From Chitinophaga pinensis DSM 2588 (GTDB taxonomy: Bacteria > Bacteroidota > Bacteroidia > Chitinophagales > Chitinophagaceae), in assembly GCF_000024005.1 (NCBI RefSeq), contig NC_013132.1:7620001-7684000 (forward strand): a stretch of DNA of 64,000 nt, read 5' to 3'. The notes under the pieces were generated by a model. The model was not told the origin of the DNA, ran no database searches, and saw only the letters and a list, made by a program, of their open reading frames with translations. The translations under genes and the position numbers were made by a program. Shown here in pieces: positions 42,196-48,921 of the stretch (within the stretch, counting starts at the first letter, position 1; every line of letters starts with the position of its first letter).

Positions 42196-42235
42196 AATGC
42201 CTTGTAAAACACATCTACATGTGTTACAAGGCATT
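42196..42235 (-). terminator. hairpin overlapping the stop codon of the zincin gene
   Basis: AATGCCTTGTAA...TTACAAGGCATT with inner ACACAT/ATGTGT pairing. The stop codon of the gene ending at 42224 lies inside the right arm. It probably ends the three-gene operon. Confidence 0.75.
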
Positions 42236-43528
42236 AAATTTTTCAAGGGCCGACCATTTAGCATGGGGAATCGGGGGTGTAGTTGCAGTAGCCACTTTTT
42301 CATCAAGTAGCTTTTTCACGCTTTCAATGATAAAGTCCATCTTAGCGCTTTCATTCTCTACACTTTGCAAATAAAGAGGATGCGACTGCCTGATCAGATT
42401 TAATAAACTGGCTTTCCGTAAAAACGCGTAAGGATGACTTTCTTTGGCGGCTATCGCCGTAAGGGCTAGTACGCTTCCATCGTAAGTAGCCAGTTTATCC
42501 ACGAAGTCGGGATCATTCAACAGGAATAGCAGGTGTTGAATCAACTCTGCCATCACAAAAAAGAGAAGCGCCCCTTTTACAGATGCAGTAAATGTTCTTT
42601 GCTTCTCACCCATCATCATCACAACCTGAAATGCGGCAAAATCCGCAAGCAGTTCCTCTTGTTGTGCATAGTAAATGCGTTCAAACTGATCATACGTTAA
42701 TTTGTCATTATCTGGCAGGACACTTGCAAGGTGTCGCTCATAGAACTGCCACATTTGTTCGTAACGTTTGTCAAACGGATGTTTACCATGCACCCCGTTA
42801 CTATGCCACCAATCGATATGAAAACACTCATGTTCCAGCACAAAAAGTATAAAATCCTGCCTGAGTACATGCCTTATGGAAAAATCTTCTTCGCTGGTTG
42901 CACCCACCGGACCAGGCAATGTACTATATCCCTCGATAATATATTGCCAGATAACCTCCGCCAGGTAATCGAGCGTTTCTTTATTAGCTTCAATATGCTG
43001 TTTCAATTCATCTCCCTCCAACTCACAGTATCTGCCATCTTCCAGTTTTTCATAGAAAAGAAATGCGAGTTCGTTAGCATAATGACTGGCAACATTCAGT
43101 AATCCGTCTTCAAGTATAATACCACTCTCGGTTTCACCTGGTAGCGCAATTGCATTAAATAGTCCCGTAGGAGCCGTTGCCAGGATTATATTAGATAGCC
43201 CTTTTTGTGTGCGCCCTGTTTTCTCATTACAGTACCTGACGGTATCCTGTAGCCATGTGTATAGATACGGATGCTGATAAGGCAGTCCAGGAACATCATC
43301 CACAAATCTTTTTGAGAGATCCGTTTCGAGATAGTGAAGAGAAGGATCACGTGCAAGTAGTTCTTCTTCGGAACGTAGATAGCCAGGATTATCGACATTA
43401 AATTGCCGGATCCTTTCCTGCTCTCTTTTGTAAAATGACTGCACATCATAATACGTCATTCCACTTGCAGCAAATGCCTCCTCCTGTAAAAGCGTAATAG
43501 CTTCTCTGGTTGTAATCGTATTGTTCAT
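42224..43528 (-). CDS. putative zincin metallopeptidase (HExxH...ExxAD)
   Basis: A 434-residue cytoplasmic protein of no family I recognise, with a full gluzincin-like zinc-peptidase signature: LEHECFHIDW gives His233, Glu234 and His237; EELLADFAAF gives Glu292 as a likely third ligand with Asp296, as in the ExxAD pattern of M48/M56-like enzymes. A flanking hydrophobic segment follows (about 318-337). No signal peptide. It is the last gene of a tight operon, 5 bp after the gasdermin-like gene. By analogy with bacterial gasdermin operons it could cleave its neighbour, but no experimental basis is visible. Confidence 0.75.
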   Translation of the reverse strand: MNNTITTREAITLLQEEAFAASGMTYYDVQSFYKREQERIRQFNVDNPGYLRSEEELLARDPSLHYLETDLSKRFVDDVPGLPYQHPYLYTWLQDTVRYCNEKTGRTQKGLSNIILATAPTGLFNAIALPGETESGIILEDGLLNVASHYANELAFLFYEKLEDGRYCELEGDELKQHIEANKETLDYLAEVIWQYIIEGYSTLPGPVGATSEEDFSIRHVLRQDFILFVLEHECFHIDWWHSNGVHGKHPFDKRYEQMWQFYERHLASVLPDNDKLTYDQFERIYYAQQEELLADFAAFQVVMMMGEKQRTFTASVKGALLFFVMAELIQHLLFLLNDPDFVDKLATYDGSVLALTAIAAKESHPYAFLRKASLLNLIRQSHPLYLQSVENESAKMDFIIESVKKLLDEKVATATTPPIPHAKWSALEKFNAL

Positions 43529-43533
43529 AAATA

Positions 43534-44211
43534 TTATTCTTCAGGAATAGCGTTCATGTAAGGTGCCAGTACCCAGGCATTTCTATCCGGCACCCCATGT
43601 TCCAGGTGTTTAAATGAATCCCCCTGTTCTTTGAGTTGGTGCAGCCTTACGCTAAGTGGTCCATTCCCCCCGACAATTTTCAGATTGATCGCTCCCGTCA
43701 ATTTCACTGCTGAAGCATTGTCGGATCTACCCTCCAGGAATTCATCCACCGCATTGGCTTCCCCTTCGATAGACATATTAAGATCTTTGGAAATCACCAA
43801 TACAAATCTTCCCGCTGTCCTGACAGAGGTCACTACAAACCAGGACCTGTCCCATCGCTCTTCAGCAGCAATAAGCCTTGCCGTCTTTTGCAATTCCAGA
43901 AAAGTATTTACCTGTACTTCCCTGGCAGACAATAACACACCATTGTTTTTCTTAAACTGATAATTCAGATTGACGATATCCTTTTGGTTACTGCGTTCCA
44001 CATCGTAGTCCGACCGGACCGAAACCTCCCCCAATTCATTGGCTTTAGCCTTGATCTCCGTATCGGAAATGTAGTCCCTGATATTCCCGATCCGTTCAAA
44101 ACAATTGTCCCTGATAACGCCGAAATCGCCCAATGCGACGATATCCCCTGGCTGCCAGATGGCGTATTCCCGTAACATTTTCCAGATAGTGTGACCGTAA
44201 TTCTTTTTCAT
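43534..44211 (-). CDS. hypothetical protein, possible gasdermin-like pore former
   Basis: A 225-residue protein without signal peptide. Its beta-rich layout resembles gasdermin N-terminal domains by eye: GDIVALGDF...FERIGNIRDYI at 22-48, a strand at 62-70, SAREVQVNTFLEL at 95-107, WFVVTSVRTAGRFVLVI at 124-140 (compare VVTEV/VVMESI strands in gasdermins), and AINLKIVGGNGPLSVRLHQL at 174-193. About 30 residues follow, the length expected of the small autoinhibitory tail of bacterial gasdermins. There is no N-terminal Cys for palmitoylation. It overlaps the HNH-like gene by 4 bp (ATGA) and precedes a putative protease. Alternative: an unrelated beta-rich defence or transport protein. CDS certain; fold tentative. 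Confidence 0.6.
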   Translation of the reverse strand: MKKNYGHTIWKMLREYAIWQPGDIVALGDFGVIRDNCFERIGNIRDYISDTEIKAKANELGEVSVRSDYDVERSNQKDIVNLNYQFKKNNGVLLSAREVQVNTFLELQKTARLIAAEERWDRSWFVVTSVRTAGRFVLVISKDLNMSIEGEANAVDEFLEGRSDNASAVKLTGAINLKIVGGNGPLSVRLHQLKEQGDSFKHLEHGVPDRNAWVLAPYMNAIPEE

Positions 44212-45341
44212 ATATTTTCTGCAATGGAATTATCTGATACCGGTATAATCGTGCGGATGTTGGTTGGTAAAGCTGATCCATATACAGCAGACATCTCATA
44301 CAGGATCATGCCAATTGTCTTTTTAAATGCTGATAATGTATAGCCCATCTGGCTGTTACTGGTATAGGCAGTCATCCTAATAAATCCATCGCTGACGGCA
44401 TACAGGGCATCCGTTTGTTGTTGCAGCCTGCTGTATGGGTCTATCTCGATGTCTTTCTCCATAAGAAATGCCACAATATCTGCCACCGTATCTTTTATGT
44501 TTTGAGGTGGCTGCGTGCCCCACGGGGCAAATAAGGCGTACTGTGCATCCAAATATCCCAGTATAAGGTTCGCCATCGTCTCCTGACGATGATCGGAAGG
44601 ACCTGCAGGCACATTCGCCTTGCTTTTCCCTTTGAGCAGGTCCTGCATCAGTTGTTCATGAATACCCTTCCATGATGCCAGTATTTCAGCAGAATATTCC
44701 CTCCCTTCATGTTGATTGATCATTGCTGCGTGATGTGCACAAAGCCAGATGCCATTCCCGATTGCATCTTCTCCCGCAATGCCCGCTTTGTCATATCTGA
44801 TGTCTCCTGCTTTCGTCCCCCTGATCAGACAAGCTTGTCCAGCTGGACGCGTATCTGCATGTCCGGCAAGTGAAGACCCCGATGTAAGCTGATAACATTC
44901 GGGGTAGCAGCAAAGATGCGCGGCACGATAACATAATTCATCAATAGTCGCCTGAGAAAAGGGCGACCTTGACGCAACCGGATCGGAAATAACCCCGGCG
45001 TCAGTAAGAGGTGCTATAACAATATGTTCAATGCTGTCCTGGTACGTTTCAATATATCTGTCCAGTATTTTCTCCAGATAGGGATGATTAGCCCGGGGTA
45101 ATTCTCCGTTCTCCTCATACAATAACCGCCTTAATGACGACTCGCCGGGAAAATGCTTCGTTCCGATATTCCTATACAGGTTATTGTCAATGTTGATCAG
45201 CACCTCTTTAATAAAATCACGCAGGGATGCCGCAAGTTTATCCCGGGAGTCCCCTTTTTTAAGTACAGAACAGATACGCAATATTTTCTCCTTTCGTACC
45301 TCGTCGATAATGATTTTAGCTTTCACGTGGGCGATTTCCAA
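44208..45341 (-). CDS. protein with degenerate HNH nuclease-like domain
   Basis: A 377-residue cytoplasmic protein, first of the three-gene operon. Residues about 1-120 form a helical domain of unknown type. Residues about 136-230 have the HNH layout often seen in defence proteins: CCYPEC (Cys144/145, Cys149), GQACLIRGTKAGDIRYD, NGIWLCAHHAAMI (Cys201, His203, His204) and ILASWKGIHEQL. Where family members have AAHI before the conserved IRYD/PRYD, this one has ACLI, so the usual first catalytic His is missing. It may bind nucleic acid without cutting, and could be a sensor. Residues 250-377 are helical. Function unknown. Confidence 0.7.
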   Translation of the reverse strand: MEIAHVKAKIIIDEVRKEKILRICSVLKKGDSRDKLAASLRDFIKEVLINIDNNLYRNIGTKHFPGESSLRRLLYEENGELPRANHPYLEKILDRYIETYQDSIEHIVIAPLTDAGVISDPVASRSPFSQATIDELCYRAAHLCCYPECYQLTSGSSLAGHADTRPAGQACLIRGTKAGDIRYDKAGIAGEDAIGNGIWLCAHHAAMINQHEGREYSAEILASWKGIHEQLMQDLLKGKSKANVPAGPSDHRQETMANLILGYLDAQYALFAPWGTQPPQNIKDTVADIVAFLMEKDIEIDPYSRLQQQTDALYAVSDGFIRMTAYTSNSQMGYTLSAFKKTIGMILYEMSAVYGSALPTNIRTIIPVSDNSIAENI

Positions 45342-45640: not shown

Positions 45641-45708
45641 AGCAGCGGCATGAAGCCGTTACATCAAACTGTCCTTGCCGGACAGACCGGGACCGCCATG
45701 CCGCTGCT
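45641..45708 (+). other. long nested hairpin in the leader of the lipoprotein gene
   Basis: AGCAGCGGCATG (45641-45652) pairs perfectly with CATGCCGCTGCT (45697-45708); inside, CTGTCC (45669-45674) pairs with GGACAG (45680-45685). The structure ends 17 bp before the start codon at 45726. The leader from about 45440 holds no gene and has further short G/C-rich inverted repeats. Confidence 0.75.
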
Positions 45709-45725
45709 TTCTAAAACGCAAAAAA

Positions 45726-46133
45726 ATGAACTTCAAACTGATATTGGCCTTTGTTGCCATAATGACCACTCTCATGACCTCCTGCCAGAAAGGAGATGTA
45801 ATGCCTGCTCCTGCCAATCAGGGAACCGAAAGAGCCGAAACATTCGCTAATGCACGGCGTGGGGGTGATGATGATGACGATCCCATCATCATGCACAAAG
45901 TAGTAAGAAGCAACGGAACGCCTATTCCGCTGGCTGACGTAAAAATGATCGATGAGAACGAAACAGACAGTATCCAGCTGTCTACCAACCTCGCCGGTGA
46001 ATGCACATTCACCTTGCCAGGAAATGGAATCTTTCACCTCAAAATAAACAGTTCCGGCTACCAGGAGATCGATACGATGATCAATGTGGTGGACTCCTTC
46101 AGCGTAAGAGTGAATGAGCTGATCGAACAATAG
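45726..46133 (+). CDS. lipoprotein with carboxypeptidase-regulatory-like domain
   Basis: A 135-residue predicted lipoprotein: lipobox LMTSC, Cys20. A run of five Asp (GGDDDDDP) precedes a CarboxypepD_reg/transthyretin-like beta-sandwich (GTPIPLADVKMIDEN, STNLAGECTFTLPGNGIFHLKI, GYQEIDT). The start at 45726 gives the standard signal; the upstream in-frame ATG at 45675 lies inside the leader hairpin. Such domains often bind sugars or act as adaptors at the surface. A terminator follows at 46154. Confidence 0.8.
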   Translation: MNFKLILAFVAIMTTLMTSCQKGDVMPAPANQGTERAETFANARRGGDDDDDPIIMHKVVRSNGTPIPLADVKMIDENETDSIQLSTNLAGECTFTLPGNGIFHLKINSSGYQEIDTMINVVDSFSVRVNELIEQ

Positions 46134-46153
46134 TATCTTTTGTTCGCAGCACA

Positions 46154-46184
46154 ACGCCCCGGGACTTGCTTCCGGGGCGTTTGT
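46154..46184. terminator. bidirectional terminator
   Basis: Perfect 10-bp stem AACGCCCCGG / CCGGGGCGTT, 9-nt loop, then TTTG; it separates the lipoprotein gene from the converging LytTR gene. Confidence 0.85.
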
Positions 46185-46931
46185 CTATTCCTGTTTACCT
46201 TGCGTAATTTTCTTAAGGCGACTCAACACATTAAACTTGTACTTTTTACCCATCGGCACTTCATTCCTGTTCACAATAAGCGTATCATGTCTTATACTAT
46301 CAATACGATGAATATTGACATAAAATGACCGGTTGGTTTGTACGATCCACGGACAGGCAAGTTGAGCAACCACCTTATTCGACGGAAGCGAGATAGTATA
46401 CTCTTTATTCATAGCACAATACATAACCGTAGACATTCCGTCTGCTTTCAGATATAGAATATCGGCAAATAATACCTTCACATACTGATTATGCAGGTAA
46501 ATAAAAATACCATCCGAAACCCGGTCGTCCATTGGCTTAGGAGTAGCCGGATTACCCGCTGCAACAGGTTGATGAATGGCCATCTCAACAGCCTGTAAGA
46601 GCGCTATATCAGTATATGGCTTGCTGAGATAATTCTGTGGGAAAGCGATCATCGCATGTTGAAATACATTGGTATCCTGCTGCTCCGTTACAAAAATAAT
46701 GGGACTGTCATATTGCTTGCGGATAATACTGGCCGCAGAGATTCCATCAATTTTACCATCAAGTCCGATATCCATTAATATAAGATCCGGCTCATAAGTA
46801 TCCAGTGCATTAATAGCCTGCTCCCCGGATGTAACGACCATACAATCGTAATTCTTCCTGCTAAGTGTAAGCGTCATACTGGTACTTACAATAATTTCAT
46901 CTTCAACAATAAGTATCTTTTTCTTTTCCAT
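46185..46931 (-). CDS. LytTR-type response regulator
   Basis: A 248-residue regulator with receiver domain (Glu10/Asp11 pocket, phospho-acceptor Asp54 in LILMDIGL, Lys of LSKPY) and LytTR DNA-binding domain (about 145-245; ILYLKADGMSTVMYC, IVQTNRSFYVN). The ATG at 46931 (MEKKKILIVEDE) is chosen; a longer frame from 46988 would overlap the kinase gene. It starts 10 bp after the kinase stop codon and is its likely partner. Confidence 0.9.
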   Translation of the reverse strand: MEKKKILIVEDEIIVSTSMTLTLSRKNYDCMVVTSGEQAINALDTYEPDLILMDIGLDGKIDGISAASIIRKQYDSPIIFVTEQQDTNVFQHAMIAFPQNYLSKPYTDIALLQAVEMAIHQPVAAGNPATPKPMDDRVSDGIFIYLHNQYVKVLFADILYLKADGMSTVMYCAMNKEYTISLPSNKVVAQLACPWIVQTNRSFYVNIHRIDSIRHDTLIVNRNEVPMGKKYKFNVLSRLKKITQGKQE

Positions 46932-46941
46932 AACCTGGGGA

Positions 46942-48921
46942 TTAAACATTGCTAAAACGAATGCGATGAATAGTGATCTCATTTTCACGACAAGACAGCC
47001 AGGACGCTTTAAGTTGCTTCACCAGCATATCTACTAATAACAAACCAAGTCCGCTGCTTTGCATCCTGGCAGCCTGCACATCCCAGGCCAACCCGTCATC
47101 ACTGATAAGCAGAAGGTAGCCCTCCCCTTCTTGTCGCATTTGCACACGGATAGATAAATGACCGGCAACAGCAGGTTGACTGTATTTGTAGATATTCGTC
47201 AGCAATTCATTCGTAATAAGCCCTAAGGGAATCGCCAGATCTTCATCTAACAGGATGTCATCCACACCTGATATAACAGATGCCTGCCGCCCGTGGCCAT
47301 GAAACGCCAGCTCCACATTCTTTACTATCTCACTAATAAAAGCTTGCATATTGATATTACCGGTATAAGCCTGCCGGTATAGCAGATTATGAACAATACT
47401 GATAGACTGTACACGACTTTTACCCGCTTCAATCAGCGCGCGCTCCTTAGGAGAATCTACTGTAGCAGTCTGCAGATTCATAATATCTGAAATGATCTGT
47501 AGATTATTCTTCACACGGTGGTTGAGTTCTTTCATCAGCAACTCTGTGCGTTCACGGGCTTTTTTTCTGAGTTTGCCGGAAAGAAATAAAAGGTATGAGA
47601 CCACCAGCAGTAATAAGATAATGGTCCCCAGTAATAACAGGAATCTGTGCTGCATACCGATCTGCTGTTGCTGAATAATAGCATTCTTCCCTGCCAGTTC
47701 CAATTGCTGCTCTTTTTCTTCTACCCTGAAACGCGCATCCATGGATGCTATGGCCGTAGACATATCAGTATTGAACAGGCTATCTTTTAAACCCAATGCT
47801 ATCCCTGACTGTATTAAAGCATTAGCATAATCTTTCTCCTGCAAATAGATTTCTTTCAGCAGCAAGGTATTTTTCAGTCGTTGGTTCACATAGATAGATG
47901 CATCCGCAATTTTTGCCACATACAACGCCAGTTCCTTTGCTTTGGCGGTTTCCTGACGAGCCACATAAATGCGGATAAGACGGTTCGCAGATGTCATCCA
48001 GCCGTCTTTGTCCTTGTTTTCATCCCGCATACCTAATGCTTCCTGCTCATATTGTTCGGCCATGGTGTATTGTTCCATGCCAATATAAGCTTCCACGATA
48101 TTATCAATAGTAGTGACCACCGATCGCTTCGAACCCGCTTTCCTCTTTATTTCCAAAGCCTGCAGATAATATTGCAATGCACGTGCATATTCTCCTGTCT
48201 CCTTATACACGTTCCCTATATTGTTCAATGAACTCCCGATACCCGTACTGTCATTCAGCCCTCGCCGGATCGTCATTGCCCTGTTGTGGTACTGTAATGA
48301 CTCACCGGGCCGGTGCAGATCCTTCATGGTATTCCCAAGCGTATTATATGCAGTGGCCAGGTCTGCTGAGGTTTTCATCTTCTCCATCATACCGGCTGCA
48401 TCCATGGAAATACTGAATGCCTTCTCATAAGCGCCAATATTCTTATAAGCGATTCCCGTATTGACATTACCCTGAACGACACGCAAAGTATCGCCGATAT
48501 GTCTGAATAGTTTACCTGCCTGCTCAAAATAAATAATCGCACTGTCGTACGCCGACCTCTCAATCATAATAGAGCCTATGTTATTAAGCCCCATACCCTG
48601 ATTCTCCTCATCACCCGCATTTGCCGCCAATGTAACCACCTGCCGATAGGTAGACAACGCTTCATCTGTACTATCCATTTTCAGATATACGACGCCTCTT
48701 GTACGCAGACTTTCAAGCTGTCCGGAAACATCCCCTTGTTGTTTCGCAAATGCATATGCCCGCCGGATCGCAGAAAGCCGTACAGCGAACTTTTCCTTTT
48801 CGTTGTTTGCTGTTGACATTAACAGTTTAAAAGACTCACAATTGATCGGAACGTCTGTTTTAGTATCACGGCAGGCTAATAATGAAAGTGATAACAAGGC
48901 GAGGGTCCGGGGTAAAGACAT
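46942..48921 (-). CDS. TPR-containing sensor histidine kinase (HisKA_2)
   Basis: A 659-residue membrane sensor. Signal peptide with possible lipobox LLAC (Cys17); residues about 60-395 contain tandem tetratricopeptide repeats (for example AYNTLGNTMKDLHRPGESLQYH, SLNNIGNVYKETGEYARALQYY); a coiled coil precedes one membrane helix at about 426-447; KELNHRVKNNLQII at 465-478 is a HisKA_2 dimerisation motif with phospho-acceptor His468, followed by a HATPase domain (NELLTNIYKYS, LLLISDDGLAWD, GLGLLLVDML). It partners the LytTR gene immediately downstream. Confidence 0.95.
   Translation of the reverse strand: MSLPRTLALLSLSLLACRDTKTDVPINCESFKLLMSTANNEKEKFAVRLSAIRRAYAFAKQQGDVSGQLESLRTRGVVYLKMDSTDEALSTYRQVVTLAANAGDEENQGMGLNNIGSIMIERSAYDSAIIYFEQAGKLFRHIGDTLRVVQGNVNTGIAYKNIGAYEKAFSISMDAAGMMEKMKTSADLATAYNTLGNTMKDLHRPGESLQYHNRAMTIRRGLNDSTGIGSSLNNIGNVYKETGEYARALQYYLQALEIKRKAGSKRSVVTTIDNIVEAYIGMEQYTMAEQYEQEALGMRDENKDKDGWMTSANRLIRIYVARQETAKAKELALYVAKIADASIYVNQRLKNTLLLKEIYLQEKDYANALIQSGIALGLKDSLFNTDMSTAIASMDARFRVEEKEQQLELAGKNAIIQQQQIGMQHRFLLLLGTIILLLLVVSYLLFLSGKLRKKARERTELLMKELNHRVKNNLQIISDIMNLQTATVDSPKERALIEAGKSRVQSISIVHNLLYRQAYTGNINMQAFISEIVKNVELAFHGHGRQASVISGVDDILLDEDLAIPLGLITNELLTNIYKYSQPAVAGHLSIRVQMRQEGEGYLLLISDDGLAWDVQAARMQSSGLGLLLVDMLVKQLKASWLSCRENEITIHRIRFSNV

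Follow-up and report, generated by a model that had tools for sequence, protein, structure and literature searches.

A gasdermin gene paired with a predicted M48-like zinc metallopeptidase gene in Chitinophaga pinensis

Introduction

Gasdermins are pore proteins that serve cell suicide during infection, in bacteria as well as in animals. Most bacterial gasdermins (bGSDM) are reported to carry a palmitoylated cysteine near residue 3, a feature that is not strictly defining. Those of Runella, Bradyrhizobium, Vitiosangium and Lysobacter are small proteins in which a short tail replaces the large C-terminal domain, and their genes adjoin that of a protease. Here we describe a three-gene locus in a 64,000-nucleotide stretch of DNA from Chitinophaga pinensis DSM 2588 (contig NC_013132.1; hereafter the window), in which a gasdermin gene (gene 2) stands between a gene for a degenerate HNH protein (gene 1) and one for a predicted M48-like zinc metallopeptidase (gene 3). 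Gene 2 resembles the bGSDMs in its predicted N-domain fold, small size, short tail and adjacent protease gene, but its partner is an HExxH peptidase and not a caspase-like or trypsin-like enzyme, and it lacks the N-terminal cysteine.

Studied bacterial gasdermins are freed when a short C-terminal part is removed (PMC9079055). Clustering with protease genes has been reported for the majority of microbial gasdermins (PMC12881547). A non-caspase protease partner is described for the small, short-tailed fungal gasdermin HET-Q1, which is paired with the subtilase HET-Q2 (PMC10989679), whilst activation of RCD-1 proceeds through co-expression of two allelic variants (PMC10197012). These systems differ from genes 2 and 3 in having a serine protease and in belonging to fungal allorecognition. 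ShdB of the Shield system parallels gene 3 in being predicted to be metallopeptidase-like and in partnering a defence effector; however, it is an M15-like negative regulator, and its effector has an RmuC domain and is not a gasdermin (PMC10270631). Unannotated gasdermin-like clusters have additionally been reported from structure clustering (PMC10584675), and the gene-2 family may be among them. We found no metallopeptidase-gated bacterial gasdermin in a literature search that did not cover the primary papers Wein 2025 and Johnson 2022, and the term 'metallo' was absent from the main text, as far as it was available, of PMC13305819, PMC10989679, PMC13236601, PMC12881547, PMC10197012 and PMC12948488. 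A first-pass annotation of the window did not recognise a metallopeptidase activator as a described arrangement. Within the limited scope of the literature covered, we rate the pairing of gasdermin and protease as already known, with the metallopeptidase partner as what would be a new variant.

Results

Open reading frame (ORF) calls on the window confirmed three minus-strand genes lying head to tail across 45341-42224: gene 1 (44208-45341; 377 aa, called from a TTG start, such that its exact start is uncertain), gene 2 (43534-44211; 225 aa) and gene 3 (42224-43528; 434 aa). As the first-pass annotation had described, these are tightly coupled, with a 4-bp overlap (44208-44211) between genes 1 and 2 and a gap of 5 bp (43529-43533) between genes 2 and 3. 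The locus is single-copy in the 9.13-Mb genome, which belongs to the Chitinophagaceae, the same family as Taibaiella. None of the three genes had a Pfam match at E up to 10, and neither Pfam nor PADLOC lists anything for genes 2 and 3. Counting the window's own, we identified nine database proteins of the gene-2 type and 11 of the gene-3 type, both conserved in length. This conservation, together with the presence of invariant HExxH and EExxAD motifs in 12/12 gene-3 sequences, indicates that the locus is more than a chance arrangement.

The gasdermin identity of gene 2, originally called by eye, was borne out by fold search, profile search and tree. Structure prediction of the 225-residue protein followed by fold comparison returned gasdermins or RCD-1 as the ten best Foldseek matches and the 20 best VIA entries, and not an unrelated fold, with the model being of moderate quality and the template modelling scores of the matches low. 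A wide-family profile compared with the PDB had gasdermins as its first four matches (7n50, E 7.4e-4; 8sl0, 0.0055; 7n51, 0.0063; 9v2s, 0.063), solved bacterial gasdermins among them. As a single-sequence query gene 2 found no gasdermin in the PDB and nothing useful in Pfam, PADLOC, NCBIfam, PHROGs or the PDB at large; its identity became visible only with profile and fold. With a profile of the nine close relatives, hhalign gave a weak link (probability 48 %, E 1.8e-4, 65 columns) to a gasdermin of the caspase-linked kind. Searched against 24 sources, this profile matched 12 of the 18 gasdermin loci that are more distant (E 3e-18 to 1e-3), with no match to L024, L025 or L075-L078. Relatives stand in operons with caspase, subtilisin and trypsin types of protease. 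Matches to the gene-2 relatives (A3) were present in 10 of 294 genomes from the Chitinophagaceae, and matches to the wide gasdermin alignment (A5) in 10 of 395 sampled from the phylum.

The tree was built from 44 rows, comprising the nine close relatives, a protein from the alphaproteobacterium Tropicibacter naphthalenivorans, 16 loci, two fusion-protein segments and a further 16 proteins, the last being every seventh from P0022 on. The search for relatives gave 237 proteins, 120 of which were listed. The ten gasdermins of gene-2 type (nine close relatives and the Tropicibacter protein) formed one clade, with support of 100/99 and presence in 100 % of 200 bootstrap trees; this is a single tree with an unsettled bootstrap, and the Tropicibacter branch is long and of odd composition, its placement being possibly wrong according to a warning of the tree program. 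Overall, predicted fold and homology support the assignment of gene 2 as a bacterial gasdermin. With regard to the N-terminal cysteine, all nine close relatives, like the Tropicibacter protein, have their first cysteine at residue 37. Similarly, no cysteine was found within the first 36 residues in any of the 22 members of the wide alignment, three caspase-linked ones included, and these 22 proteins perhaps form a branch separate from the palmitoylated gasdermins.

In the nine-member alignment the tail of gene 2 shows, in this order, a conserved strand end, the conserved block F(R/K)HLE, a variable loop and a conserved cap. The loop, delimited by column entropies (residues 205-212; 43576-43599, minus strand), lies between F(R/K)HLE and a second conserved block, LAP, and the predicted local distance difference test score falls below 50 at residues 197-208. 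In the cap (residues 213-225; 43537-43575, minus strand), residues 214-217 are nearly constant, and P217 and E224 are invariant. From this pattern, the loop is a candidate cleavage site and the cap a candidate inhibitory tail.

For gene 3, the first-pass annotation had noted HExxH at residues 233-237 and ELLAD at residues 292-296, and both coordinates were verified. The former, HECFH (42818-42832, minus strand, as for the motifs that follow), is the proposed zinc and catalytic site, with H233, E234 and H237 invariant in 12/12 sequences; the latter forms part of EELLAD (residues 291-296; 42641-42658), the proposed region of the third zinc ligand, in which E291, E292, A295 and D296 are equally invariant. 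Two further motifs are SHPYAFLR (residues 364-371; 42416-42439; S364, H365, P366, Y367 and R371 invariant in 12/12), which we take to be the counterpart of the M48 HP motif, and NAIALPG (residues 125-131; 43136-43156; A126 and A128 do not vary, and N125 and G131 hardly do), which hhalign aligned to an M48-like neighbour and which presumably corresponds to the NAxALPG strand preceding the M48 active helix. The order of these motifs is, we assume, the same as in M48 peptidases.

None of the 12 gene-3 members matched Pfam PF01435 (M48) at E up to 10, and for this reason we file the protein as M48-like rather than M48. Searches against PDB sequences, whether with single sequences or profiles, gave chance matches only, whilst BepA and Ste24p were among the four best VIA entries for the predicted model. 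Gene 3 shares with these M48 peptidases, and with the wider gluzincins, the HExxH, ExxAD, NAxALPG-like and SHP-like motifs; it differs from M48 peptidases in the missing Pfam match, in large helical additions to the model and in having just a single hydrophobic helix (best mean hydropathy over 19 residues of 1.34-2.03 across the 12 members). Accordingly named, gene 3 is likely an M48-like zinc metallopeptidase, its activity being predicted. A distinct M48-like gene (324-326 aa, HEIGH, HPHP) adjoins gene 3 in Taibaiella (L002 11301-12275) and gene 1 in a further genome, G469 (L049 4363-5343), with the two proteins being 53 % identical.

A scan with the gene-3 pattern, which covered 84,980 species at one genome per species, returned two relatives, one in Taibaiella koreensis and one in Tropicibacter naphthalenivorans (29 % identical). 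In both, a gasdermin gene lies directly upstream of gene 3, as it does in the window (3/3 genomes read; L017 and L002 are one locus, counted once), and at the Tropicibacter locus (L003) both genes share an ATGA overlap. The gasdermin-HExxH pairing, an idea of the first-pass annotation, is hence conserved across two phyla, and gene 2 adjoins a protease gene in every genome read, provided that gene 3 is an active protease. Of the nine gene-2 database proteins, five lie on contigs of more than 2 kb, each with a contig size that recurs in the gene-3 list, whilst the other four are on contigs of 1.0-1.2 kb, too short for both genes. Taken together, the partner of the ten close-type gasdermins was observed in three, deduced from contig size in three and unassigned in four. 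The gene-3 profile had no match in the other 21 of the 24 sources, 18 distant gasdermin loci among them, and only the window's own gene 3 was found in the 395 sampled genomes of the phylum. Neither gene 2 (37 pattern stretches) nor gene 3 (45) had a relative on viral contigs, and plasmids contained no gene 3; two distant gasdermins on plasmids were matched with gene 2.

The neighbours of the more distant gasdermins are varied. Peptidase_C14 is adjacent to the gasdermin in L020, L021 and L023 and fused to it in L024. L018 has Peptidase_S8 beside a nuclease-gasdermin fusion, whilst in L025 the gasdermin adjoins a Trypsin_2-Endonuclease_NS protein. CHAT proteins occur near the gasdermin as a divergent neighbour (L073), at a distance of 2.5 kb (L029) and, together with an nSTAND1 protein, beside it in L020 (1112-5955); in L074 (7183-11676), SIR2_2-EAD11 and nSTAND1 proteins follow it. 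No recognised protease was found nearby in L019 or L028, where the next genes were run through Pfam, or in L022, L026 and L027, which were judged by reading. The Endonuclease_NS domain is fused to the gasdermin itself in L018 (5272-7131) and to the trypsin-type protease in L025 (7351-9507), which suggests systems combining a nuclease with a pore. L075-L078 share a common cluster type with gasdermin-profile proteins of 307-317 aa (L075 6177-7100, L076 6408-7331, L077 6603-7526 and L078 5993-6946; E 2e-12 to 7e-7) that form their own clade (100/99); in L075 an AAA ATPase gene is next to the gasdermin gene and an eCIS_core protein is encoded further downstream, and these gasdermins are possibly delivered.

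Residues 124-241 of gene 1 match PADLOC HNH-type models (best E 1.5e-10, residues 128-236) and, across about the same residues, PHROGs of unknown function; PDB sequences gave no match. In this degenerate HNH region (residues 125-240; 44622-44969, minus strand), ACLI replaces AAHI and MIN replaces (I/V)D. The AAHI site reads ACAI in Taibaiella (L002) and ACLI in G469 (L049), and the aspartate is lost in all three locus members, whereas (A/G)AHI and the later (I/V)D are kept in 16/16 other HNH relatives examined (11/11 other matched places and 5 of 130 plasmid records). The AAHI histidine is presumably a catalytic HNH residue. Since these residues are lost, active nuclease activity is unlikely, and we rejected such a role. 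The gene-1 protein resembles CBASS-type HNH effectors (SAVED-HNH and related) in matching their models; it differs from them in lacking the histidine and aspartate and in showing, among the matches listed, none to the remainder of those models. In G469 gene 1 occupies the same locus with genes 2 and 3 not there, and it was not seen beside genes 2 and 3 in Tropicibacter; because of this, a fixed partnership was also rejected and gene 1 is considered accessory. As for the earlier HNH-like label, the domain is a degenerate HNH and the gene not a constant partner.

A lipoprotein, a TPR histidine kinase and a LytTR regulator gene adjoin the locus in the window (45675-48921), Taibaiella (L002 4416-7807) and G469 (L049 6987-10446). 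The kinase was found in 5 of 195 genomes searched (E 1e-60), and in three of these the lipoprotein-kinase-regulator set lies beside gene 1; in the other two (G515 and G463; L061 and L062) the kinase set is without gene 1 in the stretches read.

Discussion

We propose that genes 2 and 3 form the core of a gasdermin cell-death system in which an M48-like peptidase activates the gasdermin by cleaving its tail, with gene 1 as an accessory, and assign this a probability of roughly 0.6. Gene 2 would be a pore-forming gasdermin that a short C-terminal tail of its own keeps inactive; upon an infection signal, gene 3, as a dedicated protease, would cut the variable loop ahead of this tail, and the freed N-domain would form membrane pores, killing the cell ahead of phage release. 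Cleavage of loop 205-212 by gene 3 is proposed because of the analogy with studied bacterial gasdermins (PMC9079055). Gene 1, having lost the AAHI histidine, would be an accessory in the Chitinophagaceae, where a sensor or scaffold is possible and the simplest role. That the locus stands for a whole class of zinc-metallopeptidase-switched gasdermin systems, cut by an M48-like enzyme on infection and equipped with a dead-HNH sensor in the Chitinophagaceae, is a more tentative suggestion, to which we give slightly less than even odds.

A number of observations weigh against this proposal. A recognised protease is adjacent or fused in only 6 of the 18 more distant gasdermin loci, 6 of 11 gene-3 proteins (P0011, P0014, P0016 and P0018-P0020) are on metagenome contigs without gene 2 seen (database listing), and no obvious defence island surrounds the window upon reading its gene list by eye, the neighbours being without a PADLOC scan. 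For the close clade, neither a fold unrelated to gasdermin nor gene-2 homologues mostly lacking a protease partner and lying outside defence contexts, either of which would have spoken against the proposal, was borne out.

Two further points against activation, that autoinhibition by the short tail is hypothetical and that genes 2 and 3 are coupled as closely (ATGA in L003) as would suit a toxin-antitoxin pair, speak for its main rival, in which gene 3 is a brake. In healthy cells the peptidase would then degrade the gasdermin or hold it, like a proteolytic antitoxin, and loss of gene 3 function during infection would free the pore. Such an arrangement has precedent in ShdB, which acts as a negative regulator, probably by degrading its effector, and in antitoxins with predicted metallopeptidase activity, both mentioned in PMC10270631. 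We nevertheless consider a brake unlikely, given that some gene-2 relatives stand with caspase, subtilisin and trypsin types, that in the studied Runella system it is cleavage by a caspase-like protease that activates the gasdermin (PMC9079055), and that the conserved cap behind a variable loop is as expected of a cleavable inhibitor.

Less probable still is that gasdermin and peptidase serve a purpose other than phage defence, such as antagonism or developmental lysis, perhaps controlled by the lipoprotein and two-component genes next door. The lipoprotein, kinase and regulator beside the locus in three genomes, the apparent lack of a defence island and the eCIS_core-associated cluster type of L075-L078 would be consistent with this; the L075-L078 proteins, however, fall in their own clade far from gene 2, the kinase occurs without gene 1 in the G515 and G463 stretches read, and no such kinase was seen at the Tropicibacter locus. 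Finally, it is highly improbable that gene 2 belongs to another, CDC- or MACPF-type branch of the pore-former superfamily and is merely gasdermin-like, as the best VIA, Foldseek and profile matches are all gasdermins or RCD-1 and the relatives' size and protease company suit a gasdermin.

The HExxH partner, in place of a caspase, trypsin or subtilisin type, points to a variant way of switching the pore on, and the blank returned by Pfam and PADLOC means that current family models miss such systems. If activation by gene 3 is true, a metalloprotease would join the proteases able to gate gasdermin pores, as a third catalytic type after cysteine (caspase) and serine (trypsin, subtilisin) proteases. 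This would suggest, as a design rule, that gasdermins pair freely with unrelated proteases.
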